Of a DNA stretch of 64,000 bases, positions 4,231 to 60,989 are shown one piece after another. The translations under genes and the position numbers were made by a program. The first letter of the stretch is position 1. Every line of letters starts with the position of its first letter. The notes beneath the pieces were generated by a model. That model did not search any database. It was not told the origin of the DNA and was given only the letters and a program-made list of their open reading frames with translations. Location of the stretch: positions 5,339,369 through 5,403,368 of the forward strand of contig NZ_JAUETR010000001.1 in NCBI RefSeq assembly GCF_032484785.1, written 5' to 3'. Source of the DNA: Bradyrhizobium sp. SZCCHNS1050 (GTDB taxonomy: Bacteria; Pseudomonadota; Alphaproteobacteria; Rhizobiales; Xanthobacteraceae).

Positions 4231-7545
<3,315 letters not shown>

Positions 7546-7575
7546 TGGCACGGAGTTTGTGCGGAGGACCAGGGT

Positions 7576-10107: not shown

Positions 10108-10982
10108 TCTACGACATCCGCCATGTCACCACCTACGAATACGGGAGTGCCGTCAGCTTCGCGCGCTGCTCGCTGCGCCTGGAGCCGCTCAGCGGCGACG
10201 GCCAGGAGTTGATCTCGCACAGCGTTGACATCCGCCCGCGTCCCTCGGAGCGGACGGCGCGGCGCGATTTCTTCGGCACACTGACCGAGAGCATCGTGAT
10301 CGACACTCAGCACCGCCACCTGCGCATCGACTCGCGCTCGCGGGTGAAGCTGTCGCGCACGCCGCCCGAGCGCGATGCGCCGAGTGCGGAGTGGGAGCAG
10401 GTGCGCGATGCAGCTTTCGAGGCGACGAGCCTCGGCCCGTCGTCGCCGATCGGCTACGTCTTCGCCAGCGCGCTGGCGCCGGTGCTGGAGCCGGTGACGG
10501 ACTACGCCGCGGCGAGCTTCTCCGCCGAGACGGGGATCGTAGCCGGCGCCGCCGATCTGATGCGGCGCATCCGCAAGGAGTTCAGATACGATCCGAAGGC
10601 GACCGTGATCTCGACCCCGCTGCGCGAGGTGTTCGACAATCGCCACGGCGTCTGCCAGGACTTTGCTCACGTCATGATTGCCGGCCTGCGCGGTCTCGGT
10701 CTCCCCGCGGCCTATGTCAGCGGCTATCTGCGCACCATCCCGCCCGAGGGCCGGCCGCCGCTGCAGGGCGCCGACGCCACCCATGCCTGGGTGTCGCTGT
10801 GGTGCGGCGACGACCTCGGCTGGATCGGCTTCGATCCGACCAACGATCTCCTGGTCGGCAATGATCACATCATCCTCGGCATGGGCCGCGACTTCTCCGA
10901 CGTCTCGCCGGTCGATGGCATCATCGTCGGCTCGCGCAAGCAGAAGCTCGGCGTCGCCGTCGATGTCGTGATGGTCGAGTAG
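10104..10982 (+). CDS. Transglutaminase-like family protein
   Basis: 292 residues. The N-terminus (IYDIRHVTTYEYGSAVSFARC) is a bacterial transglutaminase-like N-terminal region, followed by a transglutaminase core with Cys in HGVCQDFAHVMIAGLR, His in DATHAWVSLWC and Asp in WIGFDPTNDLLVG. The start is a GTG inside the stop region of the ATP-grasp gene (four-base overlap). This is the shorter of the two transglutaminase-like partners in the operon; it could be a protease, amidase or cross-linking enzyme. Confidence 0.9.
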   Translation: MIYDIRHVTTYEYGSAVSFARCSLRLEPLSGDGQELISHSVDIRPRPSERTARRDFFGTLTESIVIDTQHRHLRIDSRSRVKLSRTPPERDAPSAEWEQVRDAAFEATSLGPSSPIGYVFASALAPVLEPVTDYAAASFSAETGIVAGAADLMRRIRKEFRYDPKATVISTPLREVFDNRHGVCQDFAHVMIAGLRGLGLPAAYVSGYLRTIPPEGRPPLQGADATHAWVSLWCGDDLGWIGFDPTNDLLVGNDHIILGMGRDFSDVSPVDGIIVGSRKQKLGVAVDVVMVE

Positions 10983-11090
10983 GGTTCCCTGACCGGGAAC
11001 GGTCGGAACATTTTTCCCGCATCGCACTTGATCCGCCCGAGGGGCCCGAATGGGGGCTGGCTGACCCTTTCGAGCGATGGAGTGATCGAC

Positions 11091-11462
11091 ATGAAACGTG
11101 TTGCAATCGTCATTGGCCTGGTCGGCGCCTGCGTCGCCGGCAGCGCCTCGGCCCAGCCGAGTGCGAACCTCACCGGCACCTACCGCTGCATCCAGATGTG
11201 CCGCGACGGAATGATCGGCGCGCCGGCCTTCGTGACGCAGAACGGCGATGCCGTGAACCTGACCACCGAAACCGGCGAGTCCCTCCAGGCCTGGCCGGAC
11301 TGGAATGCTCCCAATAGCCGGCTTTGGATCGACGCACGTGACGAAAGCGCAGTGTATTCGCCCGACGGCATGCGCATCCAGTTCGACGACGGCCGTGTCT
11401 GGGAGCGCGACCTGCCGCCGCCGCTCATCGTGCGCCGCGCGCCGGTGGTGTACGGGCGATAA
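11091..11462 (+). CDS. Small secreted protein of unknown function
   Basis: 123 residues starting at ATG 11091 with a clear Sec signal peptide (KRVAIVIGLVGACVAGSASA, cleavage expected after SASA). The mature part contains GTYRCIQMCRDGMIG, with two cysteines that could form a disulfide, and a short beta-rich body. An upstream ATG-like start at 11028 would put a hydrophilic stretch before the signal peptide and is disfavoured. No function recognised. Confidence 0.7.
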   Translation: MKRVAIVIGLVGACVAGSASAQPSANLTGTYRCIQMCRDGMIGAPAFVTQNGDAVNLTTETGESLQAWPDWNAPNSRLWIDARDESAVYSPDGMRIQFDDGRVWERDLPPPLIVRRAPVVYGR

Positions 11463-11694
11463 GCGATCGCCATTGCTATCGAGGCTCTCGCGCACGCGGG
11501 GGCCTTGATTTGCGGGTGAGATGAAAGGTGCCGGCCTCACGATCCAGTACTCGCCGGAAGGGGTGATGAATCGAGACGCCGCGGCGTACCGGATGCCCGC
11601 CTGCGCGGACATGACACGGGGTACGGGGCGGCGTTCTCGCGACACGATCTGTCCGAGTCATGAAGGATAGCTCGAACCCTCTGAGAACAAGAGG

Positions 11695-48457: not shown

Positions 48458-48514
48458 GGCTCGCGGCCGCGTGCAGCGGCACCGCCGCGATCAGGCACGA
48501 AAGTGGACTGGCAG

Positions 48515-48541
48515 GGCCCGTGCGATGAGCGCGGGCCTTTT
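48515..48541 (+). terminator. Terminator after the amidohydrolase gene
   Basis: GGCCCGTGC / GCGCGGGCC stem (one G-T pair), followed by TTTTGCTTT. Confidence 0.75.
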
Positions 48542-48934
48542 GCTTTCCATATGCACGTCGAGCTTCATGAGCTACGCGAGAATGTGCGCTGCCGCGGAAT
48601 GAGGTGCGACAATATGCCTGGCGGGTGACATCCGAGAGCGCAAGACGTCATCACGCGTGGTCACTGCCGGCCTGAGACGACCGCAGTGCGTCGCTCATTC
48701 GAGCAATCAACAGGTGTATCTGACAAACTACTCTATTGTTAAAGAACTAGCTTCATGTTAGTTTTTTTCTGGCTTCGACGACTGGCGAATTGGGACAGCC
48801 TGAGCGAAGTGCTTAGCACAGCTACATTGCTTCAGGTTCTGTGAGTTCAGGGCGCGAGATCACAGAGCTTGTACCGGGACGTTGCTATTTCCTTTCTGAA
48901 CGATGGCGGTTCTCAACCGACTGGGAGTATAGGA
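48542..48934. other. AT-richer leader region upstream of the RiPP precursor gene
   Basis: About 390 bases without a gene. The stretch 48700-48790 is markedly AT-richer than the rest of the window and contains TTGTTAAAGAACTAG and GTTAGTTTTTTTC, so the promoter of the RiPP cluster is probably here. No known sigma consensus was assigned. Confidence 0.5.
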
Positions 48935-49282
48935 ATGGCTGATCGCGATCCGGCGGAAATGCGCAAGAAGGTCGATCTGGCGCTGAAATCCGTAGTCGAC
49001 TCAGAGATCGCACGCGCGTCTCTGAAGATCGACATCATGGCAGAAGGCGTTCCATTCTCGCGTGGAGCGATCTTCAGCAAGACCAATCCATTCTCGCGCG
49101 GCATCGTCTTCAGCCGCCTTGCGGCGATGGAGCGTCCGGACGAGATGGAACGTGAAATCGCCAACGATCCCGCGGTGTTGGGGGCTCTTGCGGAGCGTCT
49201 CACGCAGGTACGGGCGGTGAAGGACCTCAAGGGTCAATTTAGCGTGCCGCAGGCGGGGGGCGCGCCGAAATCGGTCAGGTGA
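48935..49282 (+). CDS. Candidate RiPP precursor with four xFS(R/K)xx repeats
   Basis: 115 residues from ATG 48935 (GGGAG seven bases upstream). The N-terminal part (1-38) is charged and helical. Residues 40-63 consist of four tandem six-residue units: PFSRGA, IFSKTN, PFSRGI, VFSRLA, with Phe-Ser in each and Arg/Lys next. The unit pair repeats at period 12 (P40-K49 and P52-R61; DNA 49052-49117). A charged follower region (64-115) ends KSVR. The core is therefore in the middle, not at the C-terminus. It lies immediately upstream of HExxH, radical SAM, YcaO and TfuA genes on the same strand, which makes it the natural substrate. No named family recognised. Confidence 0.7.
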   Translation: MADRDPAEMRKKVDLALKSVVDSEIARASLKIDIMAEGVPFSRGAIFSKTNPFSRGIVFSRLAAMERPDEMEREIANDPAVLGALAERLTQVRAVKDLKGQFSVPQAGGAPKSVR

Positions 49283-49314
49283 ATGGATCGATCGTTCGGC
49301 TAAGACGGAGCGAA

Positions 49315-49363
49315 GCGGGCCTGCGATGTCGGATCTTTCCGACGTGACGTGTCGTGGGCCCGC
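49315..49363 (+). promoter_or_regulatory. Predicted nested hairpin between precursor and biosynthetic genes
   Basis: Outer stem GCGGGCC/GGCCCGC (49315-49321, 49357-49363) and inner stem GTCGGA/TCCGAC (49328-49333, 49338-49343). It could let precursor mRNA outnumber mRNA of downstream genes by partial termination or 3' protection. Confidence 0.4.
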
Positions 49364-49521
49364 CCGCGACTCGCTGGTGCGGATGACGGGCAATGGTCGC
49401 CGTCATCAGCGTGACCTTTCCTGATAGCTGCTCTTGATTCCGGCATCGGTTGCGGTCCTGTCTGACGGCGGGACAGCTTGCGGCCGGCTTCGTTGGCGTA
49501 TTTCCGGAGGCATGCTCGATC

Positions 49522-50553
49522 ATGAGTGACGCGTGGACCTGGCGACCGTCGAAATCTGCCTGGCATGAAAAATTCAACGACAGGATCCTGAGATGGCAGC
49601 CGGAGGATCGCCTCGGCCTCGACTGCGAGCCGCTCAAGGCGTCGCTCATCGAAGCCAACGCGCGTGAAGCGGACTGGCTTCGTCATCCCTGCATGAACTC
49701 CATCACCTATGAGGGGCATGACAAGAGCCCGCAGCGTGATCTGCAGGTGGCGATCTGGACGGCGGCGAATGCGCCGACCGCATCCACCTCGCTGACGACG
49801 CCGGAGCCGCTGACCTTGTGGTCGCCGGTCGGAGGCTACCGGATCGAGGCCGGCAGCTATGACCTGAACGAGCTCGCTGGGCTGCTCCCGATGAAGGAAT
49901 GGCCCTACGACATATCGGTCGACGTGGGGTGCCACTCCCTCGGATTTCCGATTCCCGACACCTGGGCCGAGCACACCGATCTCTCGGCCGACGAGCAGGC
50001 CCGGATGACGCGCGAGGTGACGAACGCGCTCGAGATCCTCGTGACCGCCGCGAAGAAGTTTCCCGAGTGCGTGAATTGGGTGTCCGATGTGACGCGGGTC
50101 CTGATCCCCCTGCGCAGCAGCGAGCGATCCTATTTCCGCAGCGGGTCGCAAGCCGATGTGCCCGGGATGGTTTACGCCGACCTGTTCGGCGGCCTGATGC
50201 AGGTGATGGAGGCCATCGTCCACGAATCCGCGCATCTGCATCTGTTCATGGCGGAGGCGTCGGGACCCCTGGTGGATCCGCAGCACCAGGGGCGCTACGC
50301 ATCGCCGTTGCGGCCGGAGCCGCGGCCCTTGCGCGGGATCCTGCTGGCCTTTCACGCCATCGCCTATATCTGCGCCTTCTATCGTGAGGCCGAGAAGCAA
50401 GGGTTCGGCGGATCAGCCGAGTATCAGGCCGAGCTTGCCAATATGCTGACCAAGCTCAAGGAGGCGCAGGTCGTACTGGACGGTGCCCGGCCGTTCCTGA
50501 CCGAGGACGGCCGCATCTTCGTCGATCGCACCGCCGAGATTGCGTACCAATGA
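49522..50553 (+). CDS. HExxH-motif peptide-modification-type protein 1
   Basis: 343 residues from ATG 49522 (GGAGG 11 bases upstream). The motif HESAH is at 234-238, within EAIVHESAHLHLFMAEA. About 25 residues later comes RYASPLRPEPRPLRGILLAF with a further His, a layout typical of the mod_HExxH family found next to FxsB-type radical SAM enzymes. HExxH binds a metal (Zn or Fe), so the protein could be a peptidase or a peptide-modifying oxygenase. The stop overlaps the next gene by four bases, so it is coupled to the radical SAM enzyme. Confidence 0.8.
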   Translation: MSDAWTWRPSKSAWHEKFNDRILRWQPEDRLGLDCEPLKASLIEANAREADWLRHPCMNSITYEGHDKSPQRDLQVAIWTAANAPTASTSLTTPEPLTLWSPVGGYRIEAGSYDLNELAGLLPMKEWPYDISVDVGCHSLGFPIPDTWAEHTDLSADEQARMTREVTNALEILVTAAKKFPECVNWVSDVTRVLIPLRSSERSYFRSGSQADVPGMVYADLFGGLMQVMEAIVHESAHLHLFMAEASGPLVDPQHQGRYASPLRPEPRPLRGILLAFHAIAYICAFYREAEKQGFGGSAEYQAELANMLTKLKEAQVVLDGARPFLTEDGRIFVDRTAEIAYQ

Positions 50554-51755
50554 ACGACGGTCCCCATCTTCACTTCGTGTTCAAGGTCGCGTCGCGCTGC
50601 AATCTGAACTGCTCCTATTGCTACGTCTACAACAAGGGCGACAGCACGTGGAGAGAGCGGCCCGCGATCATGGATGATGAGGTCGTCGAGATCGCGATCG
50701 ACCGCATCCGCCGCCATTGCCAGGCAACGGGTCAGAGCTATCTGACGATCACCTTTCATGGCGGCGAGCCGTGCCTGGTCAAGCAGGAGCGGTTCAGCTC
50801 ATGGTGCCGGAAGATCAAGGAGGGGCTGTCGGGCGTCGCGCGGGTGCAGCTCTGCATGCAGACCAACGGCACGCTGCTCGACGACGGCTGGGCCGAGATC
50901 ATCAAGAGGTTCGACATCGATCTCGGGATCAGCATCGACGGAACCCCCGAGGTGCATGATGCCTTGCGCGTCGATCATGCCGGGCGTGGCTCCTATCGCG
51001 ATGTCGAGCAGGGCCTTGCCGTGCTGCGCCGCGCCGGGATTCCGCTGCGCTTCCTGTCGGTGATCCAGCTCGGGGCGAGCGGTGCCGCGGTGCATCGCCA
51101 TCTGACGAGCCTGGGCCCGGCCTCCATCGACTATCTGCTGCCGGATTTCACCCACGACACCATCGCGGCGGTTCGCGACCGGTATGGACCGACACCCTGT
51201 GCCGATTTCCTGATCCCGATCTTCGAGGATTGGTGGCGGGACGGCACGCTGGATCTCCGGATCAAGATCTTCTGGAACATCGCTTGGCTGGTCCAGGGCG
51301 GGGAGAGCCGCATCGACATGCTCGGCAACCAGCCGCTGACCTTCCTGTTCGTCAACACCGATGGCGAGATCGAAGGGCTGGATGTGCTGCGGGTCTGCTA
51401 CGACGGCGCCGCGCGCACCGGCCTGAATGTGCGGACGTCCGACTTCATGGACGTCCGGCACGCCGGCGAATTCCATCGTGCGGCGGTGTTCGAGGGCATG
51501 CCGCTGCCCGACGGCTGTCGCGCGTGCCGCGAGCGCGACACGTGTGCCGGCGGCTATCTTCCGCATCGCTATGCATCGCGGACGGGCTTCAACAATCCGA
51601 CGGTGTGGTGCGCCGATCTCCTGAAACTGTTCGATCACGTCCGCGAGCGGCTGGGAACGTCGGTGGAGGAAACCAAGCTGCGCCGGGCTCATCTCCTCGA
51701 CACCGCCCTGCGGCGGGCGGTGGGGCTGCAGCAGGAATCTCCGGCCATCGGCTGA
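50550..51755 (+). CDS. FxsB-like radical SAM peptide-modifying enzyme
   Basis: 401 residues. Radical SAM cluster Cys17, Cys21, Cys24 (CNLNCSYCYVYNKGD) near the N-terminus and TFHGGEPCL as the SAM-binding GGEP motif. The C-terminal auxiliary-cluster region has Cys283 (RVCYDG), Cys323, Cys326, Cys332 (CRACRERDTC, followed by AGGYLPHRY) and Cys354 (NNPTVWCADLLKLF). The text GGYLPHRY..GFNNPTVWCADL is characteristic of the FxsB family. FxsB-type enzymes form three-residue cyclophanes (triceptides) on FxS-type peptides, and the precursor here has repeated Phe-Ser-(Arg/Lys). The product is inference. Confidence 0.88.
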   Translation: MNDGPHLHFVFKVASRCNLNCSYCYVYNKGDSTWRERPAIMDDEVVEIAIDRIRRHCQATGQSYLTITFHGGEPCLVKQERFSSWCRKIKEGLSGVARVQLCMQTNGTLLDDGWAEIIKRFDIDLGISIDGTPEVHDALRVDHAGRGSYRDVEQGLAVLRRAGIPLRFLSVIQLGASGAAVHRHLTSLGPASIDYLLPDFTHDTIAAVRDRYGPTPCADFLIPIFEDWWRDGTLDLRIKIFWNIAWLVQGGESRIDMLGNQPLTFLFVNTDGEIEGLDVLRVCYDGAARTGLNVRTSDFMDVRHAGEFHRAAVFEGMPLPDGCRACRERDTCAGGYLPHRYASRTGFNNPTVWCADLLKLFDHVRERLGTSVEETKLRRAHLLDTALRRAVGLQQESPAIG

Positions 51756-51848
51756 GGTCGGACCTCGATCGCCGACTTATGCGCGCTGTCGCGCGGGCCT
51801 GCTGCAAGGCGGCGTGGTCGAGAGTGGAACGTGGAAGGAGTGCGCACG

Positions 51849-52964
51849 ATGACGATCACCCTGATGCCTGACGTTCTGCGCTGGAATGACTACGAGGCGG
51901 TGTGTGACGGCGTGCTTGCGACCTATGGCGACCGGCTCGCGCAGAAGCTGGGCGAAGCCCTCGGCGAGATCGGCCGCGACGACCCTGCGGGCGGGGACGA
52001 ACTGCGCAGCCTGATGGATCGCGTGGCGGACGACGGCTTCATGCGGGTTCTCGATGCCCCCGAGACCTCGTTCCGTCTGCTGTCGGCGCCGGGCCGGTAC
52101 GCCGAGGACAAGGGACGATTTCTGCGCGATTCATTCGTGGCTGAGGCCTTGCGCCAGGGACTCGAGATCACCGCCGATCGGGAGGTGTGGACCGCGCTCG
52201 GCGATCGCGGCTATCGGCGTGACGGCGCCTGCATCTGGCCGCAGATCGAGGGCATGCCCGTGACCGATTACGGCAGCCCGCATGCGGTCAAGGTGGATCT
52301 GTCCGGCCAGGACCGGCCGGTCCCGCCGCAGCGCCCGCCGTTCTCCGAGGACGAAATCGACCGGCTGCGTGATCTGCTGCGCCGGTCGCGGGCGGCGCTC
52401 GAACGGACCGAAGCGGGGCTTCCCCGCTTCGTCGCGCGCTTCAACATCGCGCTCATCCTGCAGAAGGATCCGGAGAGCCCGGGCAGCTTCTCGTCAGGAT
52501 CGAACGGCTACTACATCGGCCGCACCTTCCTCGCCAACCCGCATCTTCCCGAGATCGACGAATCCCACATCGCCGATGCGCTCGTCCATGAGGGCATCCA
52601 CGCGCTGCTCTACATGCAGGAGCAGGAACAGCCCTGGTTCCTCGATTCGACGGCGAAGGGCTCGCTGCCGCGCATCACCTCGCCCTGGAGCGGCAGCCGG
52701 CTGCCGTTTCCGTCCTTTCTACAGGCCTGTTTCGTCTGGTACGGCCTGCTGCACTTCTGGAGCCTGGCGATGCAGTCCGGCGCGTTCGAGCAGGGCGTCG
52801 CGATGAAGCGCATCCAGCTCTGCCTGCGCGGCTTCTGCAAGCAGCCGTTGCTCGACAGCATCGCGGAGTTTTCGTCGGTGGTCGACGCCGACGTGCAGAA
52901 GACGATCGAGGAGATGCAGAACGTCGTGGTCGGCGCCTTTGCCGATGTCCGCCGTGCGGGCTGA
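51849..52964 (+). CDS. HExxH-motif peptide-modification-type protein 2
   Basis: 371 residues from ATG 51849 with GGAAGGAG nine bases upstream. HEGIH at 247-251 within DALVHEGIHALLYMQEQEQP, followed by ITSPWSGSRLPFPSFLQACF and a later His, the same layout as protein 1 but with low overall similarity. It is the second HExxH protein of the cluster. Two different HExxH enzymes in one cluster suggests two substrates or two sequential steps, or that one is a leader/follower peptidase. Confidence 0.78.
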   Translation: MTITLMPDVLRWNDYEAVCDGVLATYGDRLAQKLGEALGEIGRDDPAGGDELRSLMDRVADDGFMRVLDAPETSFRLLSAPGRYAEDKGRFLRDSFVAEALRQGLEITADREVWTALGDRGYRRDGACIWPQIEGMPVTDYGSPHAVKVDLSGQDRPVPPQRPPFSEDEIDRLRDLLRRSRAALERTEAGLPRFVARFNIALILQKDPESPGSFSSGSNGYYIGRTFLANPHLPEIDESHIADALVHEGIHALLYMQEQEQPWFLDSTAKGSLPRITSPWSGSRLPFPSFLQACFVWYGLLHFWSLAMQSGAFEQGVAMKRIQLCLRGFCKQPLLDSIAEFSSVVDADVQKTIEEMQNVVVGAFADVRRAG

Positions 52965-53003
52965 TGCGACGACGTCAGCGGCGGTTGAGTGTGGAGGCTG
53001 CGG

Positions 53004-54293
53004 ATGGCGAATGGAACGGCACTGCATCGGGATCGTCTGGCGCGTCCGGTCCCGAAGAGCTTTCGATGGGGAACTCAGCGGTCGGTGCCGCCGTCGCAGA
53101 CGGTCGAGCGGGTGCGTCCGTTCCTGGGAGAAATGGGAATCACGCGCATTGCTGACGTCACGGGTCTCGACCGCGTCGGCATTCCCGTCACCATGGTCTG
53201 CCGGCCGAACTCGCGCTCGGTCTCGGTGTCGCAGGGCAAGGGGCTGACCCTGGATGCTGCGAAGGCGTCGGGCGTGATGGAATCGATCGAGCTGTTTCAC
53301 GCCGAGACGATCACATTGCCGCTGAAGCTTGCGACCTATGCCGAGCTGATCAGCGACCATGAGGTGGTCGACGTGGCGGACTTGCCGCTGATCGCCGGCG
53401 GGCGTTTCCATCCCGATCTGCAGATGCTGTGGATCGAAGGGCGCGATCTCATGGCCGATGCCGACGTCTGGGTGCCGTTCGAGATGGTGAACCTGTCGAC
53501 CTCGCGGCCGGAGATGCCGGCCGGCAGCTTCATCTCGTCGTCGAACGGGCTGGCGTCCGGCAACCAGCTGATCGAGGCGGTCCTGCACGGCATCTGCGAG
53601 GTCGTGGAGCGCGATGCGACCACGCTCTGGCACCTCCGCAGTCCGGACGAGCAGCAGAGCCGGCGCGTCGCGCTCGAGACGGTTCAGGACGAAGGCAACC
53701 GGCGGCTCCTGGAGATGTGCGAGCGCGCGGGCCTCGAGGTCGTGGCGTGGGACATCAGCTCCGATGTCGGGCTCGCCGCCTGCCAGTGCCTGATCTTCGA
53801 TCGTGACGAGGAGCTGGGGCGGGATCTCTACGCGGCGTTGGGCATGGGCGCGCATCTGTCGCCAGAGATCGCCTTCCTGCGGGCGCTGACGGAAGCCGCG
53901 CAGAGCCGGCTGACGCTGATCGCGGGCGCGCGCGACGACGTGTTCCGCGAGGAATATGACGAGAAGGCGTTGGCCGCACAGTTTCTCGGCGAGCAGCGGG
54001 CGCTGCTGCGGAACAGCCCGCCGACGCGAAGCCTGCGCGAAACTCCGTCGCTGGCAGCGGAGACGTTCAACGATGATCTCGCCGTGGTTCTCGAACGGCT
54101 GCAATCCGCCGGTGTCCGGCAGGTGATCGCGGTCGATCTCACCAAGAGCAGGTTCGAGATCCCCGTGGTGAGGATCATCATTCCGGGGCTCGAAACCTTC
54201 GACAAGAATCCTGACTACAGCCCGGGGCGCAGAGCGCGGGCCTTCGCCGGCGATCAGATCTCGCGGCATCAGCCATCGGGGCATCCGCTATGA
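53004..54293 (+). CDS. YcaO-family ATP-dependent peptide cyclodehydratase/thioamide enzyme
   Basis: 429 residues from ATG 53004 (GGAGG seven bases upstream). YcaO ATP/Mg motifs are Ser89-Glu96 region (ASGVMESIELFHAE), NGLASGN (181-187) and CEVVERDAT (Glu199, Glu202). It directly precedes and overlaps a TfuA gene by four bases. TfuA-paired YcaO proteins install thioamides in thioviridamide-type peptides and in archaeal McrA, whereas others make azolines. The C-terminus lacks the Pro-rich tail of YcaO enzymes that act with E1-like partners. A thioamide-forming role is inferred from the TfuA partner. Confidence 0.88.
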   Translation: MANGTALHRDRLARPVPKSFRWGTQRSVPPSQTVERVRPFLGEMGITRIADVTGLDRVGIPVTMVCRPNSRSVSVSQGKGLTLDAAKASGVMESIELFHAETITLPLKLATYAELISDHEVVDVADLPLIAGGRFHPDLQMLWIEGRDLMADADVWVPFEMVNLSTSRPEMPAGSFISSSNGLASGNQLIEAVLHGICEVVERDATTLWHLRSPDEQQSRRVALETVQDEGNRRLLEMCERAGLEVVAWDISSDVGLAACQCLIFDRDEELGRDLYAALGMGAHLSPEIAFLRALTEAAQSRLTLIAGARDDVFREEYDEKALAAQFLGEQRALLRNSPPTRSLRETPSLAAETFNDDLAVVLERLQSAGVRQVIAVDLTKSRFEIPVVRIIIPGLETFDKNPDYSPGRRARAFAGDQISRHQPSGHPL

Positions 54294-55645
54294 CGTGCAT
54301 CGTATTCACCGGGCCGACGCTGCATCCGCGCGACGCGGCGCTCGAATTGGAGGCCGAGTATCTCCCGCCGGTGCAGCAGGGCGACGTCTATCGTGCTGCG
54401 CTGGCGAAGCCTGCGGCGATCGGAATCATCGACGGCTATTTCGAGCAGGTGCCCTCGGTGTGGCACAAGGAGATCCTGTGGGCGATGGCCAACGGCATCC
54501 ACGTGTTCGGCAGCGCCAGCATGGGCGCGCTGCGCGCGGCCGAGCTGCACGCGTTCGGCATGGAAGGCGTCGGCAAGGTGTTCGCGGCGTATCGCGACGG
54601 CGTGTTCGAGGCCGACGACGAGGTCGCCCTGATTCACGGACCGGCTGAGCTCGGCTTTCCCGCGCTGTCCGAGCCGCTGGTCAACATCCGCTTCACCCTG
54701 CAGAAGGCGGTCGACCATGGCGTGATCTCGGAGGCGTCCCGCCTGGTCCTGGAGGCGCTCGGCAAGGCAAGCTTCTATCCCGAGCGCAGCTACCCGGCGC
54801 TGCTGCAGGGCGCGCGGTCCGACGGCAGCCTAGCCGCGCAGGAGATCGACGCGCTGGAGGCGTGGCTGCCGGATCACCGCGTCGACCAGAAGCGCGAGGA
54901 TGCGCTGGAGATGCTGCAGACGATGCGGCGCCGGTTTGCCGGAGACACGGTGCCCAAGGCGGTCGATTACGCCTTCGAGCACACCCAGCTATGGGACGGC
55001 CTGATGCAGGACGCGCAGCGTTCGGCGGCCGCAGCGCGCGAGACGGTGATGCCGGACGGAACGCCGCACCTGCTGGACGAGCTGCGCCTGCTGGCCGTGC
55101 GCGGCAGCGACCTGTCCGACAAGGCGATCGCGCGATTTCTCGCGGCATCGGAGGCGAAGCGCCGCGGCATCAGGGTCGACGCCCAGGCGCTGAGCGCGGA
55201 GATCATCCGGTTTCGGCAGAGCAGGGATTTGATGGACCCGGCCGAGCTCGAGGCATGGATCGCGCGCAACGGCCTGACCCGGTCGGAATTTCTGGAGCTG
55301 ATGCTGGACGAGGCGCGCATTCGATCGTTCAGGAAGGGGCTCAACGGCTCGGCCCTGAATGCGCTGGCCGACTGGGCGCGGATCGACGGCCATTTCGAGG
55401 ATCTGCTGGCGCGCGCGCGCGACAAATGCGACGTGCTGAAGCAGACGGAGCTCGACGGCGGTGGCAGTCCGGCGGACTATGGCCTCGGCGAGGACGAGCT
55501 GATGGCGAGATACCTGCCCGCGATGCAGGCCGGCGCACCCGACCGGGACGAGACGGACGTGGCGGTGTCGCTCGGCTTTCCCGACCGAGCAGCGCTGATC
55601 CAGGCCTTGCTGCGTGAGCACGTCTACACGTCGCGCAAATCCTGA
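54290..55645 (+). CDS. TfuA-like partner of YcaO
   Basis: 451 residues. The N-terminal TfuA core has CIVFTGPTLHP, IIDGYFEQVPSVWHKEILWA (residues 46-65) and GSASMGALRAAELHAFGMEG (74-93). A C-terminal extension of about 200 residues with further helical repeats makes it longer than the minimal TfuA core. TfuA proteins occur next to YcaO in thioamide RiPP systems and in trifolitoxin production in Rhizobium; they are thought to supply sulfur or activate YcaO. Last gene of the candidate cluster; no transporter or immunity gene follows. Confidence 0.88.
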   Translation: MTCIVFTGPTLHPRDAALELEAEYLPPVQQGDVYRAALAKPAAIGIIDGYFEQVPSVWHKEILWAMANGIHVFGSASMGALRAAELHAFGMEGVGKVFAAYRDGVFEADDEVALIHGPAELGFPALSEPLVNIRFTLQKAVDHGVISEASRLVLEALGKASFYPERSYPALLQGARSDGSLAAQEIDALEAWLPDHRVDQKREDALEMLQTMRRRFAGDTVPKAVDYAFEHTQLWDGLMQDAQRSAAAARETVMPDGTPHLLDELRLLAVRGSDLSDKAIARFLAASEAKRRGIRVDAQALSAEIIRFRQSRDLMDPAELEAWIARNGLTRSEFLELMLDEARIRSFRKGLNGSALNALADWARIDGHFEDLLARARDKCDVLKQTELDGGGSPADYGLGEDELMARYLPAMQAGAPDRDETDVAVSLGFPDRAALIQALLREHVYTSRKS

Positions 55646-55693
55646 GGCCCCGTTGTCGCGTGGGGGCGGCCCGGTCGAGGCCATGCCGGCCCG

Positions 55694-57175
55694 TCACGCC
55701 GCATGTGCGCGCCTGATCGCGGCCGCGGCAATCTTCAGGTCCTCGACGAAGCGCTCATATTCTCGCGCCTTGGCGTCGGCATCCGGCAGCCGCAGCAGGT
55801 AGGACGGGTGCACCGTCACCATCGCCTTGGGGCCGTCGGGCAGGTCGGCGACGTGACCGCGGTTCTTGGTGACCTGCGTGATCTTGCCGAACACCGCTTG
55901 CGCGGCGGTCGCGCCCATCGCCACCACCAGTGCCGGGCGCACGGCGGCAAGTTCGCGCTCGTACCATTGCCGGCAGGCCTTGATCTCCGGCGTGTTCGGC
56001 TTCTGGTGCAGCCGGATCTTGCCGCGCGGCACGAACTTGAAGTGCTTCACCGCATTGGTGACGTAGACCTTGGACCGGTCGATGCCGGCCTCTTCAAGCG
56101 CGCGGTCCAGCATCTGGCCGGCCGGGCCGACGAAGGGATGGCCGGCGAGGTCCTCCTTGTCGCCGGGCTGCTCGCCGACCAGCATCAGCGGCGCATGCGC
56201 GGGGCCTTCGCCGAACACGGTCTGCGTGGCGTCCTTCCACAGCGGGCAGGCGCGGCAGGAAGCGGCTTCTTCGCGCAAGGTCTCAAGATCGGTGGCCTCG
56301 ACATCACGTGAGGTCTCAGCAGCGGGCGCGTGGGCTTTCGGCTTGCGGCTCATCGCGGTCTCCTCGACGCGTTTCTGCGGCTTGTGGGGTTCAGTGCCGG
56401 CTTCGGCGATCATCGATGACGTGCGCCTGGAGGCGGCCGCGATCAGCGGCTGGATCAGCTTGGCCTCGGGCAGGTTCTGCCAATATTTCTTCGGCATCTC
56501 CTTTTCCATCGCCTTCACTTTCAGCCGTGCCGGATTGAAAATGCTGGCATAGTAACGCAGCCAGACCTCTTCGAGCCGGTCCTCCGACGGCGCTTCAGCC
56601 TTGCTCACACCGGGCGTGAAGCTGACGCGGCTGCCGTCCCAATGCGCACAGAGTTCGGGCGTCAGGATCGACCACGGCATGTCGGCGAAGCGGCGGGCGA
56701 AAAATGGCGCGGCGCGCTCGACGATGTGGTGCTCGGGCTCGAACCAGGCGACGTAGCGCGCCTCGCGCTCGCGGCCGACCTCGCGGAAGCGGACGAAGGC
56801 ATGCATCTTGTGGACGTCGCGGCGCACCGCCCGCGCCAGCGCGTTGGCCTGGGCGACATCAGGATCGGTCGCGATCTCCATGAGATCGTGGTTGGTCCGC
56901 AGACGCCACAGCAGCCGGTAGAGCAGGGCGAAGCGGTTGGGATCATTGTGCAGAATCGCGCTCTCGGCGAGCTCCATGAAGCTCGCCGGCACTGAGAACG
57001 CGCCCTTTGGCACCTCGGGAAGCTGCGTGTCGGCCTGATCGTCGAACAGGTCGGGCGCTGCGCCCTTGACGCGCCAGCTGACGTCGGCCGGCTTGACGTC
57101 GTTCATCGCCAGCGCCCGCGCCGCCTGACGCCAGCCGTCGAAATCAGTGTCGCTGTCGAGGGTTACGACGTGCAT
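55694..57175 (-). CDS. UdgX-type uracil-DNA glycosylase fused to DUF4130 domain
   Basis: 493 residues in two parts. N-terminal (about 1-260) DUF4130-type domain, containing DVHKMHAFVRFREV; the C-terminal (about 290-493) UdgX-type domain has CRACPLWKDATQTVFGEGP (FeS cysteines), MLVGEQPGDKEDLAGHPFVG, and RGKIRLHQKP with the His that in UdgX forms a covalent bond to uracil-DNA. The C-terminus has VTVHPSYLLRLPDA. It is paired with the radical SAM DNA-repair gene at 57290, the usual neighbour. Both may belong to the SOS/DNA-repair block. Confidence 0.9.
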   Translation of the reverse strand: MHVVTLDSDTDFDGWRQAARALAMNDVKPADVSWRVKGAAPDLFDDQADTQLPEVPKGAFSVPASFMELAESAILHNDPNRFALLYRLLWRLRTNHDLMEIATDPDVAQANALARAVRRDVHKMHAFVRFREVGREREARYVAWFEPEHHIVERAAPFFARRFADMPWSILTPELCAHWDGSRVSFTPGVSKAEAPSEDRLEEVWLRYYASIFNPARLKVKAMEKEMPKKYWQNLPEAKLIQPLIAAASRRTSSMIAEAGTEPHKPQKRVEETAMSRKPKAHAPAAETSRDVEATDLETLREEAASCRACPLWKDATQTVFGEGPAHAPLMLVGEQPGDKEDLAGHPFVGPAGQMLDRALEEAGIDRSKVYVTNAVKHFKFVPRGKIRLHQKPNTPEIKACRQWYERELAAVRPALVVAMGATAAQAVFGKITQVTKNRGHVADLPDGPKAMVTVHPSYLLRLPDADAKAREYERFVEDLKIAAAAIRRAHAA

Positions 57176-57209
57176 TTCACCTCTCTCGTCATTGCGAGCG
57201 AATCCGCCG

Positions 57210-57252
57210 CGTCATTCCGGGGTTCGATGCTTCGTATCGCCCCGGAATGACG
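57210..57252. repeat. CGTCATTCCGGGG palindrome (REP-like)
   Basis: Arms CGTCATTCCGGGG and CCCCGGAATGACG are perfect inverted 13-mers around a short loop. The left arm recurs inside dnaE2 at 63914. A GTCATTGCGAGCGA word of the 45382 family precedes it. Confidence 0.85.
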
Positions 57253-57289
57253 GCTGTTTCCTGGCTTCGGTCTTCGCCACGACGTTCAA

Positions 57290-58528
57290 TTAGAACCCAA
57301 ATCCCAGCTGCTGCGGTTTGGGCCGCAGCCGGGCTCTGAGGCTGGCACCGTCGAGCAGGGACGGCTGTGGCCGGTGGTCGGAGAGAACGATGAACGGCAG
57401 GACCTTGTTCCGGATCACGTTGAGCCGGGCGAGATCCGCAAAGCGGATCGTGGTGGTGCGGCGGGTGGCGAGGATGCGCTGCACGGTGCGGGTGCCGAAG
57501 CCGGGCACGCGCAACAGCTCCTCGCGGCTCGCTTTGTTGATGTCGAGCGGGAAGCGGTCGCGATGGCGCAAGGCCCAGGCGAGCTTGGGGTCGATGTCGA
57601 GCGGCAGCATGCCTTCGTTCTCCTCGACGATCTCGTCGGCATCGAAGCCGTAGAACCGCATCAGCCAGTCGGCCTGGTACAGCCGGTGCTCGCGCACCAG
57701 AGGCGGTGCCTGCAGCGGCAGCGCGCGGCTGGCATCGGGGATCGGGCTGAAGGCGGAGTAATAGACGCGCTTGAGCTTGTAGGCGCCGTAGAGATTGGCC
57801 GAGGTCGACAGGATGACGCGGTCGTTGGCGTCGTCGGCGCCGACGATCATCTGCGTGCTCTGGCCGGCCGGCGCGAAGCGCGGCGGCCTGGCCCGGCGCA
57901 CCGTCTTCTTCGCCTCCGCCGTCTCGTCGAGCTTGAGCCGGAGACGGCCCATGGTGCGGCGGATGGCGCGCTGGTCCTTTTCCGGCGCGAGCGTCGTCAG
58001 GCTCGCCTCCAGCGGCGTCTCGATGTTGATGCTGAGCCGGTCGGCATAGCGGCCGGCCTCGGCGATCAGCGCCTCGTCAGCCTCCGGAATCGTCTTCAGA
58101 TGGATGTAGCCGCGGAAGCGATGCTCCTCGCGCAATTTGCGCGCGACGCTCACGACCTGCTCCATCGTGTAGTCGGGGCTGCGGATGATGCCCGACGACA
58201 GGAACAGTCCCTCGATGTAGTTGCGGCGATAGAAGTCGATGGTCAGCTTCACCACCTCGTCGACCGTGAAGCGCGCGCGGGCCACGTTGGAGGAGGCGCG
58301 GTTGACGCAATACAGGCAGTCGAAGTTGCAGGCATTGGTCAGCAGAATCTTGAGCAGCGAGATGCAGCGTCCGTCCGGCGCATAGGAATGGCAGATGCCC
58401 ATGCCGGGCGAGGTCGAGCCGAGCCCCTTGCCGTCGCGGGAATCCCGCATCTCGGTACCGCTGGAGGCGCAGGACGCGTCGTACTTGGCGGCATCGGCCA
58501 GGATCTCCAGTTTGCGCAACAGCTCCAT
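57290..58528 (-). CDS. Putative DNA modification/repair radical SAM protein
   Basis: 412 residues from ATG 58528 (ATG 58552 is possible; the frame is open far upstream through imuA). Matches the radical SAM proteins that co-occur with UdgX: MELLRKLEILADAAKYDASC at the N-terminus, CHSYAPDGRCISLLKILLTN, radical SAM Cys in CNFDCLYCVNRASS, and a helix-hairpin-helix near the C-terminus (INKASREELLRVPGFGTRTV). Cys-rich N-terminal part plus HhH indicate a nucleic-acid substrate. It is divergent from imuA with a LexA box between them. Confidence 0.9.
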   Translation of the reverse strand: MELLRKLEILADAAKYDASCASSGTEMRDSRDGKGLGSTSPGMGICHSYAPDGRCISLLKILLTNACNFDCLYCVNRASSNVARARFTVDEVVKLTIDFYRRNYIEGLFLSSGIIRSPDYTMEQVVSVARKLREEHRFRGYIHLKTIPEADEALIAEAGRYADRLSINIETPLEASLTTLAPEKDQRAIRRTMGRLRLKLDETAEAKKTVRRARPPRFAPAGQSTQMIVGADDANDRVILSTSANLYGAYKLKRVYYSAFSPIPDASRALPLQAPPLVREHRLYQADWLMRFYGFDADEIVEENEGMLPLDIDPKLAWALRHRDRFPLDINKASREELLRVPGFGTRTVQRILATRRTTTIRFADLARLNVIRNKVLPFIVLSDHRPQPSLLDGASLRARLRPKPQQLGFGF

Positions 58529-58613
58529 GGCTTTGAATCCCTTTGATTCCATTCGTTGAATCACACCCGGGTCAATCCCGATTGACTCTCTCGAAGGCGT
58601 TAGCTTTATATTA

Positions 58614-58628
58614 GAACGTATCATGAAC
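58614..58628. promoter_or_regulatory. LexA (SOS) box GAAC-N7-GAAC
   Basis: GAAC at 58614-58617, seven bases, GAAC at 58625-58628: the alphaproteobacterial LexA operator (GTTC-N7-GTTC on the other strand). It lies midway between the divergent starts of the radical SAM repair gene (58528) and imuA (58712), so it can control both. Confidence 0.88.
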
Positions 58629-58711
58629 AAAGAGGGTCGTCGCGGGTTCACTGCCTGATCACTGAAACAACGGCAGCGCCCGCACGATGGATTGAAGAGG
58701 AGCGGCGACGG

Positions 58712-59506
58712 ATGACCGGCGCACGCATGGATACGCTCGCGCGTCTGCGCGGCCGCATTGCCCGTCTCGAGGCGGGAGATGGCGCACATGATTTGCGCCG
58801 GGTCGCGCTCGGCCATGACGAGGCCGACGCGACCTTGCAGGGCGGGCTCGCGACCGGCGCGCTGCACGAGGTGTTCGCCGAGACCGGCCGCCAGGCGGCA
58901 GCCGCGACCGGCTTCCTGTGCGGGCTTGCCGCGCGTGTCGCCGCGCACCGGCCCCTGATCTGGATCCGGCAGGATTTCGCCGAGCGCGAGATGGGCGCGC
59001 TGTCGATGAGCGGGCTCGCCGAGCTCGGCCTCGATCCGCGCCGCATCGTCATCGTGTGCGCGCCCGATCTCGACCACGCCTTGCGCACCGCCGCCGACGC
59101 GCTCGCCTGCGATGCGCTCGGCAGCGTGATGCTGGAGGTGTGGGGGGAGACGCAAAAGCTCGATCTCGTCGCCAGCCGCAAGCTGACCCTGGCGGCGCAG
59201 GAATCCGGCGTCACCGCGCTCATGTTGCGCATTGCGGCTGCGCCCGAGCCATCGACCGCGGAGACGCGCTGGATCGTGCGCACCGCGCCGTCACCGCTCG
59301 TTGCCCCGTGGATGGCGTGGGGCGCGCCGCGCCTCGATGTCGAGCTCATTCGCAACCGTCACGGCCAGACCGGACGATGGATCATGGAGTGGACCCCCGA
59401 TGCATGCCGTTTCAACGAACCGGCGGCGGATCCTCAGCCTGTGGCTGCCGCGCCTGCCCATCGATCGCATCAAAAGACAGCGGGCACTCACAGGCGCTCC
59501 GCCTGA
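58712..59506 (+). CDS. imuA: ImuA (SulA/RecA-like accessory mutagenesis protein)
   Basis: 264 residues. N-terminal LARLRGRIARLEAG, then LATGALHEVFAETGRQAAAA, LIWIRQDFAEREMGALSMSG and a RecA-like core fold. First gene of the imuA-imuB-dnaE2 SOS cassette, which performs translesion synthesis. The 3' end overlaps the imuB start by 107 bases in another frame. Confidence 0.92.
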   Translation: MTGARMDTLARLRGRIARLEAGDGAHDLRRVALGHDEADATLQGGLATGALHEVFAETGRQAAAATGFLCGLAARVAAHRPLIWIRQDFAEREMGALSMSGLAELGLDPRRIVIVCAPDLDHALRTAADALACDALGSVMLEVWGETQKLDLVASRKLTLAAQESGVTALMLRIAAAPEPSTAETRWIVRTAPSPLVAPWMAWGAPRLDVELIRNRHGQTGRWIMEWTPDACRFNEPAADPQPVAAAPAHRSHQKTAGTHRRSA

Positions 59507-60989
59507 GAGCAAGCCGCAGGTCGTCGTCATCAAGGACGCCAATGCGCTCTTGATCCATTCGCTGGACGAAGCGGCGGCGTGCCACGGTGTGTCGCTCGAC
59601 CAGCCCTTGGCGAATGCCCGCGCGGTCTGTCCCGACCTCGTCGCGCACGAAGCCGATTTGGCGGCTGATGCAAAGATGCTGGAGAGCATCGCCGACTGGT
59701 GCGACCGCTTCACGCCGCTGGTGGCGCTCGACCCGCCGCATGGGTTGTCGCTCGACATCACCGGCTGCGTGCATCTGTTCGGCGGCGAAGCCAGGCTGAT
59801 GCAGTCGGTCTGCGACGCGCTGACCGCGCATGGCCTCATTGTGTCGGCGGCGATCGCCTCCAACGCCGTCTGTGCGCGTACGCTGAACCGCCAGGTGCAT
59901 GGCCGCATCGTGCCCGACGGCGAGGAGGCGGCCGCGGTGGCGCCGCTGCCGGTGGCCGCCCTCGGCGGCAGCGAGGCCATTACGCTCGGCCTGCGCCGAG
60001 CCGGCCTCAAGACCATCGGCGACGTCGCCGCGCGCGGCCGCAACGAGATCACCGCGCGGTTCGGCGCCGCCTTCACCCGCGTGCTGGCGCAGGCGCTGGG
60101 CGAGGCCGATGCGCCGATCAGCCCGCGCAAGGTCCCGCCGGACTACATCGTCGACAAGCGTTTTGCCGAGCCGGTCGCGACCGACACGGTGATTGCGGCC
60201 AGCCTCTCCCGTCTGGCCGCGATGCTGGTGGCGGCGATGGCGCAGCAGGGCAAGGGCGCGCGGCGGCTGGAGGCCTGCTTCTTCCGCACCGATGGAATGG
60301 TGCGCGTGATCACGGTCGACACCGGCCAGCCGGTCACCGAGGCCGCAATCATCGACCGGCTGTTCCGCGAGCGGCTCGAGGCGCTGAACGATCCGCTCGA
60401 TCCCGGCTTCGGCTTCGACATGATCCGGCTCGCTGCTGGCCGCAGCGAGATCGTGGTGCAGCAGCAGCGCGATCTCGATGCCCATGTCCACGACAATGAC
60501 GAGCTGTCGGCACTGATCGACCGCATCGCCGCGCGCATCGGCGGCAAGCGCGTGGTCGTGCATCTGCCGGTCGATACCCATGTTCCGGAGCGCGTGGCGC
60601 TGCCGCTGCCGGCGCAGCAAAATCTCGCCGCCGCCACTGCTGCCGCCTGGCCGGAGCGCGCCGAGGGCGAGCCGCCGCTGCGACCTCTGCGGCTGTTCGC
60701 GCACCCCGAGGCGATCCAAGTCATTGCCGGCGTGCCGGACGGCCCGCCCGCGCGCTTCGTCTGGCGCCGTGCCGCGCATGCCGTGGTCCGCGCCGAGGGC
60801 CCGGAGCGCATCGCGATGGAATGGTGGCGGCCGGACGGGCAGGGCCTCACGCGCGATTATTTCCGCGTCGAGGACGAGCACGGCCTGCGCTTCTGGCTCT
60901 ATCGCGACGGGTTGTATGACCGTGAGTTCGAGCAGCCTGAGGGCCCGCCGGTGCAGCCCGCCTGGTACATGCATGGCCTGTTCGCATGA
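59400..60989 (+). CDS. imuB: ImuB (catalytically inactive Y-family polymerase)
   Basis: 529 residues from ATG 59400 (frame open further upstream, but RILSLWLPRLPIDRI is the usual N-terminal start). Y-family-like core: LDITGCVHLFGGEARLMQSV, FGAAFTRVLAQALG; a C-terminal little-finger/ImuB domain follows. ImuB lacks the full set of catalytic acidic residues and links ImuA and DnaE2 to the sliding clamp. Its start lies within the imuA coding region. Confidence 0.92.
   Translation: MHAVSTNRRRILSLWLPRLPIDRIKRQRALTGAPPESKPQVVVIKDANALLIHSLDEAAACHGVSLDQPLANARAVCPDLVAHEADLAADAKMLESIADWCDRFTPLVALDPPHGLSLDITGCVHLFGGEARLMQSVCDALTAHGLIVSAAIASNAVCARTLNRQVHGRIVPDGEEAAAVAPLPVAALGGSEAITLGLRRAGLKTIGDVAARGRNEITARFGAAFTRVLAQALGEADAPISPRKVPPDYIVDKRFAEPVATDTVIAASLSRLAAMLVAAMAQQGKGARRLEACFFRTDGMVRVITVDTGQPVTEAAIIDRLFRERLEALNDPLDPGFGFDMIRLAAGRSEIVVQQQRDLDAHVHDNDELSALIDRIAARIGGKRVVVHLPVDTHVPERVALPLPAQQNLAAATAAAWPERAEGEPPLRPLRLFAHPEAIQVIAGVPDGPPARFVWRRAAHAVVRAEGPERIAMEWWRPDGQGLTRDYFRVEDEHGLRFWLYRDGLYDREFEQPEGPPVQPAWYMHGLFA

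Follow-up and report, generated by a model that had tools for sequence, protein, structure and literature searches.

A six-gene cluster of Bradyrhizobium sp. SZCCHNS1050 as a candidate source of a thioamidated and hydroxylated triceptide-like peptide

Analysis of a 64,000-nucleotide stretch of the Bradyrhizobium sp. SZCCHNS1050 genome (contig NZ_JAUETR010000001.1, positions 5,339,369 to 5,403,368; hereafter the window, at its full length) pointed at six genes encoding a small precursor peptide, two HExxH proteins (HX1 and HX2), a radical SAM/SPASM enzyme, a YcaO protein and a TfuA protein (Table 1). We consider it probable that these genes make up a compact cluster of the type that produces ribosomally synthesised and post-translationally modified peptides (RiPPs), and that its product would be a hybrid peptide whose single core combines cyclophanes between Phe and Arg or Lys with hydroxyl groups and with thioamides at Gly. 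What we observed is the gene set itself, its recurrence in other genomes, a single family of precursors whose core, in the middle of the peptide, is conserved, and the families to which the enzymes belong. The six same-strand genes with tight spacing and two four-base overlaps, described in an initial annotation of this DNA, were found again at the same place and strand: the HX1 and radical SAM genes overlap at 50550-50553 and those of YcaO and TfuA at 54290-54293, the remaining intergenic gaps being 239, 93 and 39 bp with the preferred starts.

Table 1. Coordinates of the cluster and its genes within the window.
Feature	Position	Strand	Description
Six-gene operon	48935..55645	+	Order: precursor, HX1, radical SAM/SPASM, HX2, YcaO, TfuA
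Precursor peptide, 115 aa	48935..49282	+	Open frame; core residues 41-61 = FSRGAIFSKTNPFSRGIVFSR
Precursor core	49055..49117	+	Four Phe-Ser-Arg/Lys triplets and two Gly, read from sequence
HX1, alpha-ketoglutarate-HExxH-type peptide hydroxylase (predicted), 343 aa	49522..50553	+	HESAH at 234-238; TIGR04267 93.7 bits
Radical SAM/SPASM enzyme, 401 aa	50550..51755	+	PF04055; C17/C21/C24, C-terminal C323, C326, C332, C354
HX2, second alpha-ketoglutarate-HExxH-type protein, 371 aa from ATG	51849..52964	+	TIGR04267 44.8 bits; alternative GTG start 51831
YcaO	53004..54293	+	ATG 53004 or GTG 52989 start; PF02624 275.4 bits
TfuA, 451 aa	54290..55645	+	PF07812 160.4 bits; TfuA domain at about 1-214, followed by an extension at the C-terminus
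Insert with whole cluster	48458..55693		Between convergent M20 amidohydrolase and UdgX/TIGR03915 genes

The precursor gene stands at the head of the operon, and its repeats, PFSRGAIFSKTN and PFSRGIVFSRLA, confirm the small repetitive peptide recognised there earlier. The core Phe residues F41, F47, F53 and F59 follow one another at exact six-residue spacing, with G44 and G56 in between; the core unit is doubled, and each unit holds two Ser. Its four FS[RK] triplets agree with the aromatic-x-x triplets of triceptide precursors. The core sits in the middle of the peptide and the C-terminus reads PKSVR, which differs from the C-terminal FxSxx that defines FxSxx-COOH peptides; FxSxx peptides of conflict systems are treated in PMC7159879. 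The window precursor had no match in Pfam and none to an NCBIfam model at E 0.1. When 10 relatives were compared with NCBIfam, nine had no match whatsoever and the tenth a chance match. A profile search gathered 80 family proteins, the window's own included, which form a precursor family for which no curated model was found in Pfam or NCBIfam.

The core pattern aromatic-S-[RK]-(Sx)-G-x-x-F-S-[RK] was present in 78 of the 80 proteins, with 88 units in total, and ten proteins, among them the window's, carry the unit twice. Variants include EFSKGAFFSR, AFSRGILFSR and HSRSKGFFFSR; in protein P0226 L replaces F in the second triplet, and in P0284, the weakest family match, D or G replaces Ser and the triplets FDR, HDR, FGK and FDR are still present together with one Gly. 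Aromatic-x-[RK] triplets numbered 177 in 1305 core residues versus 74 in the remaining 6976, a biased comparison, as the motif itself defines the core window. The Gly count of the core is fixed by the search pattern, the informative figure being the 79 of 80 proteins that fit this pattern. By eye, leader and C-terminal follower are more variable than the core, and the C-terminal segment after the core is also common to the family. Matches to the precursor family extend to actinobacteria (Actinoplanes derwentensis, Streptomyces).

Recurrence of the gene set was assessed with two peptide patterns derived from the HX2 alignment. Scanned against the genomes of 84,980 species, they returned 42 stretches and 16 confirmed loci; relatives in which the exact patterns are absent escape such a scan. 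Searches of these loci by tblastn with the six window proteins revealed HX1, the radical SAM enzyme, HX2 and YcaO together in four of the 16, all of which carry the precursor as well, namely L007 (Sphingomonas pituitosa), L008 (a Sphingomonas metagenome-assembled genome), L009 (the cyanobacterium Phormidium tenue) and L010 (Sphingobium nicotianae). Three of the four also contain TfuA; L008 has five of the six genes, as its contig breaks off within YcaO. The remaining 12 loci gave radical SAM and HX2 matches, with YcaO and TfuA not found in the stretch available. The full set was present once more in L040 (genome G762, from the search of the genus Sphingomonas), which was reached by the HX1 profile. 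A relative of the precursor lies directly upstream of HX1 in all five loci, four of them aligned with the window peptide, and since these loci were reached through the enzymes, the presence of the precursor there was not selected for. Furthermore, all five YcaO loci contain exactly one open frame that fits the strict core motif, versus none of 20 other radical SAM or HExxH loci without YcaO (L011-L022, L024, L025 and L041-L046, the YcaO status of the reference plasmid loci L042-L046 being taken from partial gene tables). With the core pattern relaxed, L007 and L024 each gain a single chance frame.

The window and L009 have the gene order precursor-HX1-radical SAM-HX2-YcaO-TfuA in common. In L007 and L040 an extra HExxH gene is placed between HX1 and the radical SAM gene; in L010 YcaO-TfuA is divergent and upstream, the YcaO piece of L008 occupying the same position. 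All five loci contain a third HExxH gene, which the window does not have. YcaO and TfuA are adjacent in the window, L007, L009, L010 and L040. As the linkage is kept through rearrangement and across two phyla, a joint function is indicated. The initial annotation had named a gene-neighbourhood search as the test that could overturn the cluster; this search was run, and the attempted refutation failed, the six genes co-occurring across two phyla in either of two arrangements. That the enzyme genes are neighbours by chance and form no RiPP cluster is therefore unlikely, and we give this next to no credence: the set recurs in unrelated genomes, the precursor recurs beside it, and nothing was found in favour of such an explanation. 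In metagenomes, the protein lists for HX1 and HX2 had 16 contigs of equal size in common (chance mean 0.8, maximum 5), those for HX1 and the precursor nine, for HX2 and the precursor eight, and all three lists four, co-location being deduced here indirectly, from identical contig sizes in the three lists.

Among 195 genomes of the genus, HX1 gave a strong match in its own genome only, four others being weak and partial, and the HX2 profile recovered one of 265 genus genomes, again its own. The HX1 profile matched three of 295 genomes of the genus to which Sphingomonas pituitosa belongs, namely S. pituitosa itself, G762 (with L040) and the weaker L041 of a different kind. Out of 63 genomes from the Phormidium tenue order it matched P. 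tenue alone, and out of 397 from the Sphingobium nicotianae family it matched three, namely S. nicotianae, the L008 assembly and one weak match, L069. Six of 246 Streptomyces genomes had only partial HX1 matches in long frames.

The radical SAM enzyme retains its CxxxCxxC and SPASM cysteines in all 11 relatives compared (C17, C21, C24, C323, C326, C332 and C354 in the window protein), as triceptide-forming enzymes do. Its description as FxsB-like stands as regards similarity, but not as regards membership: FxsB and YhhB are its top models, both below their cut-offs (FxsB model TIGR04269, 301.5 bits versus 370), the XyeB cut-off is likewise missed, and the nearest solved relative is ChlB (9gm3, 1.5e-58). 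A tree of 25 proteins united all six radical SAM enzymes associated with the FSR core in one group (support 96/94), beside which stood two enzymes from Rhizobium plasmids and that of L012 (99/98); the FxsB and YhhB references fell outside. Deep forks are weak in this tree, the fork between its halves having 60/86 and several branches being long. The two plasmid enzymes, the nearest outside the FSR group, are located on Rhizobium conjugative plasmids (L024 and L025, about 6000-11500) together with an HExxH partner; neither TfuA nor the strict core motif was found in these records.

Both HExxH proteins pass TIGR04267, the NCBI model for alpha-ketoglutarate peptide hydroxylases (cut-off 40 bits), in line with the two HExxH proteins noted before. 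The family profiles of HX1 and HX2 matched ChlH (8s5f) at 7.4e-11 and 2e-6, respectively. The AlphaFold model of HX1 (predicted local distance difference test, pLDDT, 93.6) retrieved with Foldseek five PDB chains at E<=0.001, all of them SjiH or ChlH, with TM-scores of 0.5-0.6 and root-mean-square deviations of 7.9-9.8 A, which points at a differing placement of domains; the ChlH-type fold was judged on this HX1 model. The His and Glu residues of HExxH are invariant in alignments A1 and A2, and H253, E254 and H257 of HX2 are so in the 43 rows of A1. The closest proteins to HX1 and HX2, 86-96% identical, come from Bradyrhizobium isolates. The reading that best suits HX1 and HX2 is that of alpha-ketoglutarate peptide hydroxylases, and this would add a third chemistry to the two proposed in the initial annotation.

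The YcaO and TfuA genes, also recognised previously, encode proteins that pass the Pfam gathering scores and form the adjacent pair PF02624-PF07812. The best NCBIfam model for YcaO was TIGR03266, with 260.2 bits versus a cut-off of 365, and its nearest solved relative MJ1094 (6pe3, 9.7e-36). TfuA scored 226.3 bits with NF033432 versus a cut-off of 235.2, which the TfuA of L009 passes (238.4) and those of L007 and L010 miss; its nearest solved relative is 6xp8 (2e-41 over residues 3-214). The pair thus falls outside the McrA-glycine thioamidation equivalogs that these two models define. An azoline option had been left beside thioamidation, and the two Ser of each core unit would offer sites for it; moreover, YcaO also scores on the SagD-type cyclodehydratase model TIGR03604. 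We nevertheless regard azoline formation on the core Ser as improbable: the 139 bits obtained lie below the cut-off of 219.25 for azol(in)e-type enzymes, the best model and the best solved relative of YcaO are of the thioamidation type, the nearest relatives of both proteins are glycine-thioamidating, TfuA adjoins YcaO in the window, L007, L009, L010 and L040, and no E1/ThiF-like partner or dehydrogenase model matched any of the six proteins in Pfam or NCBIfam.

The pair could also act on another substrate and merely adjoin a triceptide-like cluster, since the substrates of such pairs can be large proteins, McrA being one example (PMC5589413). YcaO, however, accompanies HX1 and the precursor in the window and in all five other loci, in two phyla and two arrangements, and so does TfuA except in the incomplete L008. 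A search for TfuA through the genomes or records of 12 loci, with six of the 16 loci and L040 left out, found it in L007, L009 and L010 only (3 of 12), and it was not found in the genomes or records of eight related loci without the precursor motif. We hold a separate substrate to be slightly more improbable still than azoline formation. The earlier proposal that one peptide receives both carbon-carbon crosslinks and a YcaO-TfuA change is hence strengthened by the co-occurrence, although its azoline part is unlikely and its chemistry is, for both changes, deduced from relatives.

Beyond its TfuA domain, the protein extends for about 235 residues (window 54932-55645) with weak similarity to SurA-N and to the peptide-maturation model TIGR04500; this SurA-like reading comes from Pfam matches below cut-off in one of five members and weak TIGR04500 matches. 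The extension is aligned to its end in L009 and is shorter in L007, L010 and L040, and the AlphaFold model of TfuA is poor (mean pLDDT 66.8). The extension possibly serves to bind the precursor.

Each reaction, its site and the order of reactions can be proposed by reference to characterised relatives. The radical SAM enzyme would likely join Phe to the beta-carbon of the Arg or Lys two residues on. In known three-residue cyclophanes an aromatic residue i is joined to the beta-carbon of residue i+2, Trp, Tyr and His being listed with Arg as their partner and Phe with Asn or Ser (PMC11002830); darobactin has a Trp-to-Lys link at the same spacing (PMC9055067). The cyclophane would come first, because ChlH needs it preinstalled: this enzyme hydroxylates Asp and His only once the cyclophane is in place (PMC12636437). 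The two HExxH enzymes would then likely hydroxylate the cyclised core, and YcaO-TfuA would likely convert backbone amides to thioamides, the conserved Gly being the most probable site, as in McrA, where such a pair places a backbone thioamide on Gly (PMC5589413). With its doubled core unit, the window precursor could receive as many as four cyclophanes and two Gly thioamides.

A broader proposal, to which we incline somewhat less than we hesitate, is that thioamidated triceptides constitute a new RiPP class with the core [F/H]-S-[R/K]-...-G-x-x-F-S-[R/K] (repeated in the window as hexads). Each triplet of aromatic residue, Ser and basic residue would be turned into a cyclophane that is strained and hydroxylated, each linking Gly would be thioamidated, and the peptide would be made by a portable six-gene module without exporter or protease that moved between proteobacteria and cyanobacteria.

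Several points weigh against the hybrid peptide as proposed. The 80-member family was gathered via shared five-residue words, so that the conservation of its core is partly selected for, a bias of which the five genome loci are free, and the gene neighbours of the actinobacterial precursors lie outside the co-occurrence data. The set is rare, the HX1 profile matching one of 385 genomes of the class, which is its own, and HX2 scores barely above the TIGR04267 cut-off (44.8 versus 40 bits). Locus L041 (4938-9287, from the Sphingomonas genus search) encodes an HX1-like protein and has two matches to the radical SAM enzyme, yet neither YcaO nor TfuA is matched there. Gly as the thioamide site is our own deduction, because neither YcaO nor TfuA of the window reaches its McrA-glycine cut-off, and the YcaO-TfuA pair of std acts on Asn (PMC13174530). 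Finally, the three-residue cyclophanes listed in the accessible part of PMC11002830 include no Phe-to-Lys or Phe-to-Arg triplet.

The release of the product has to be considered together with the limits of the insert. The M20 and UdgX/TIGR03915 genes are 7236 bp apart here versus 167 bp between the open frames of the same convergent pair in the genus relative G006 (locus L050); the M20 gene was found at most 1.5 kb from the UdgX/TIGR03915 gene in only one of 15 genus relatives examined, so that the empty site is known from one genome. The edges of the insert match the six genes, which leaves scant space for an exporter, protease or regulator, and Pfam and NCBIfam scans of the six proteins together with the insert boundaries recognised no exporter or protease gene; export and trimming would consequently depend on genes elsewhere. 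One HExxH enzyme may instead cut the backbone and supply the absent protease step. Oxidative cleavage by at least one of them, freeing the core, would account for the protease-free insert and for a core in the middle of the peptide, and the HEXXH enzymes PflC and PosC are known to cleave in this manner (PMC12636437). Yet ChlH is described as a hydroxylase in the same paper and, by eye, the precursors share no site like the ARMD motif, so that we regard cleavage as an unlikely, though serious, alternative to hydroxylation by both.

Alternatively, the modified peptide might never be excised and would persist inside the cell, a small and hypermodified protein that keeps its leader and follower helix. 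The lack of a recognised exporter or protease in the insert and, by eye, the shared C-terminal segment after the core agree with this. Trimming by genes elsewhere is nonetheless known (PMC12636437) and, for darobactin, was shown in E. coli lysate (PMC9055067), and the follower may serve only as an enzyme-binding segment. Retention of the whole peptide appears to us about as unlikely as oxidative cleavage, and we keep to a hybrid core that would be trimmed and exported by means of genes elsewhere.

The nearest known system is that of ChlB/ChlH from Chlorogloeopsis, a fused radical SAM and alpha-ketoglutarate-HExxH protein (9gm3, 8s5f), which contains the nearest solved relatives of the window radical SAM enzyme and, with SjiH, of HX1, and in which a cyclophane is followed by beta-hydroxylation (PMC12636437). 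In the window, by contrast, the radical SAM and HExxH enzymes are separate proteins, the HExxH proteins are two and YcaO-TfuA is additional. With triceptides (XncB, OscB, MscB, HaaB and YhhB systems) the cluster shares a radical SAM/SPASM enzyme and aromatic-x-x core triplets, Arg being among the known triceptide partners (PMC11002830); it differs in the radical SAM scores given above, the mid-peptide core and the thioamidation pair. Adjacent YcaO and TfuA genes are shared with thioamidated RiPPs, i.e. thioviridamide-like peptides, thiovarsolins, thiopeptides, chimeric lanthipeptides and std (PMC13174530). Glycine thioamidation of McrA by MJ1094-type YcaO and archaeal TfuA provides the closest models and solved relatives of the window pair, whereas the window substrate would be a small peptide, the cut-offs are missed and TfuA has an extra C-terminal part. 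To our knowledge, none of the thioamidated RiPPs named above has three-residue cyclophanes or alpha-ketoglutarate-HExxH enzymes.

A 2021 genome survey predicted over a thousand thioamidated-peptide clusters in proteobacteria and reported TfuA clusters with other radical SAM genes, of B12 type in Bradyrhizobium and uncharacterised (PMC8120280). Neither the full gene set nor the combination of thioamide, cyclophane and hydroxylation was found in the accessible parts of open-licence papers, and in the open-licence full texts TfuA appeared together with HEXXH only in the paper on the std cluster, where HEXXH is in the reference list alone. Each enzyme type is known; new would be the predicted combination of three known chemistries with an uncurated precursor family. 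If the hybrid peptide is real, three unrelated modifications would meet on a single short core. This would be a way in which nature makes peptides that are rigid and resist proteases, the sharing of one substrate by enzymes of cyclophane formation, hydroxylation and thioamidation could readily be tested on it, and a substrate would be assigned to proteobacterial TfuA-YcaO pairs. The conserved core and the repeat count allow exact, falsifiable mass predictions.

A mobile or defence role of the window cluster was also considered and is not supported by the scans of viral contigs, plasmids or PADLOC: patterns from the HX1 alignment had no relative in viral contigs, plasmids gave nothing for the precursor P0228 and a single match, weak and partial, for HX1, and PADLOC returned only a similarity of the radical SAM enzyme to viperins. 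It should be added that some relatives adjoin a SIR2-domain gene (L009) or Piwi-domain and NACHT genes, and that triceptide-type radical SAM genes near Piwi-domain and NACHT genes on plasmids (L042, L046) hint at a link to defence islands. In Phormidium (L009:13850-16596) the cluster continues with the SIR2-domain protein, the frame of which overlaps that of TfuA, and with another HExxH-type gene. A HemK/PrmC-like methyltransferase gene is divergent beside the L007 precursor (L007:4575-6032) and a similar frame lies beside that of L040 (L040:14439-16163), models having been run for L007 only.

The guanine-cytosine content of the cluster (0.658) equals closely that of the window (0.657), and the 477 bases 5' of the precursor are lower (0.562). 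A DNA-repair block adjoins the cluster (window 55694-60989), consisting of the UdgX/TIGR03915 fusion, a TIGR03916 radical SAM repair protein and a protein similar to DNA polymerase IV; the frame at 58712 in this block is presumably ImuA-like.

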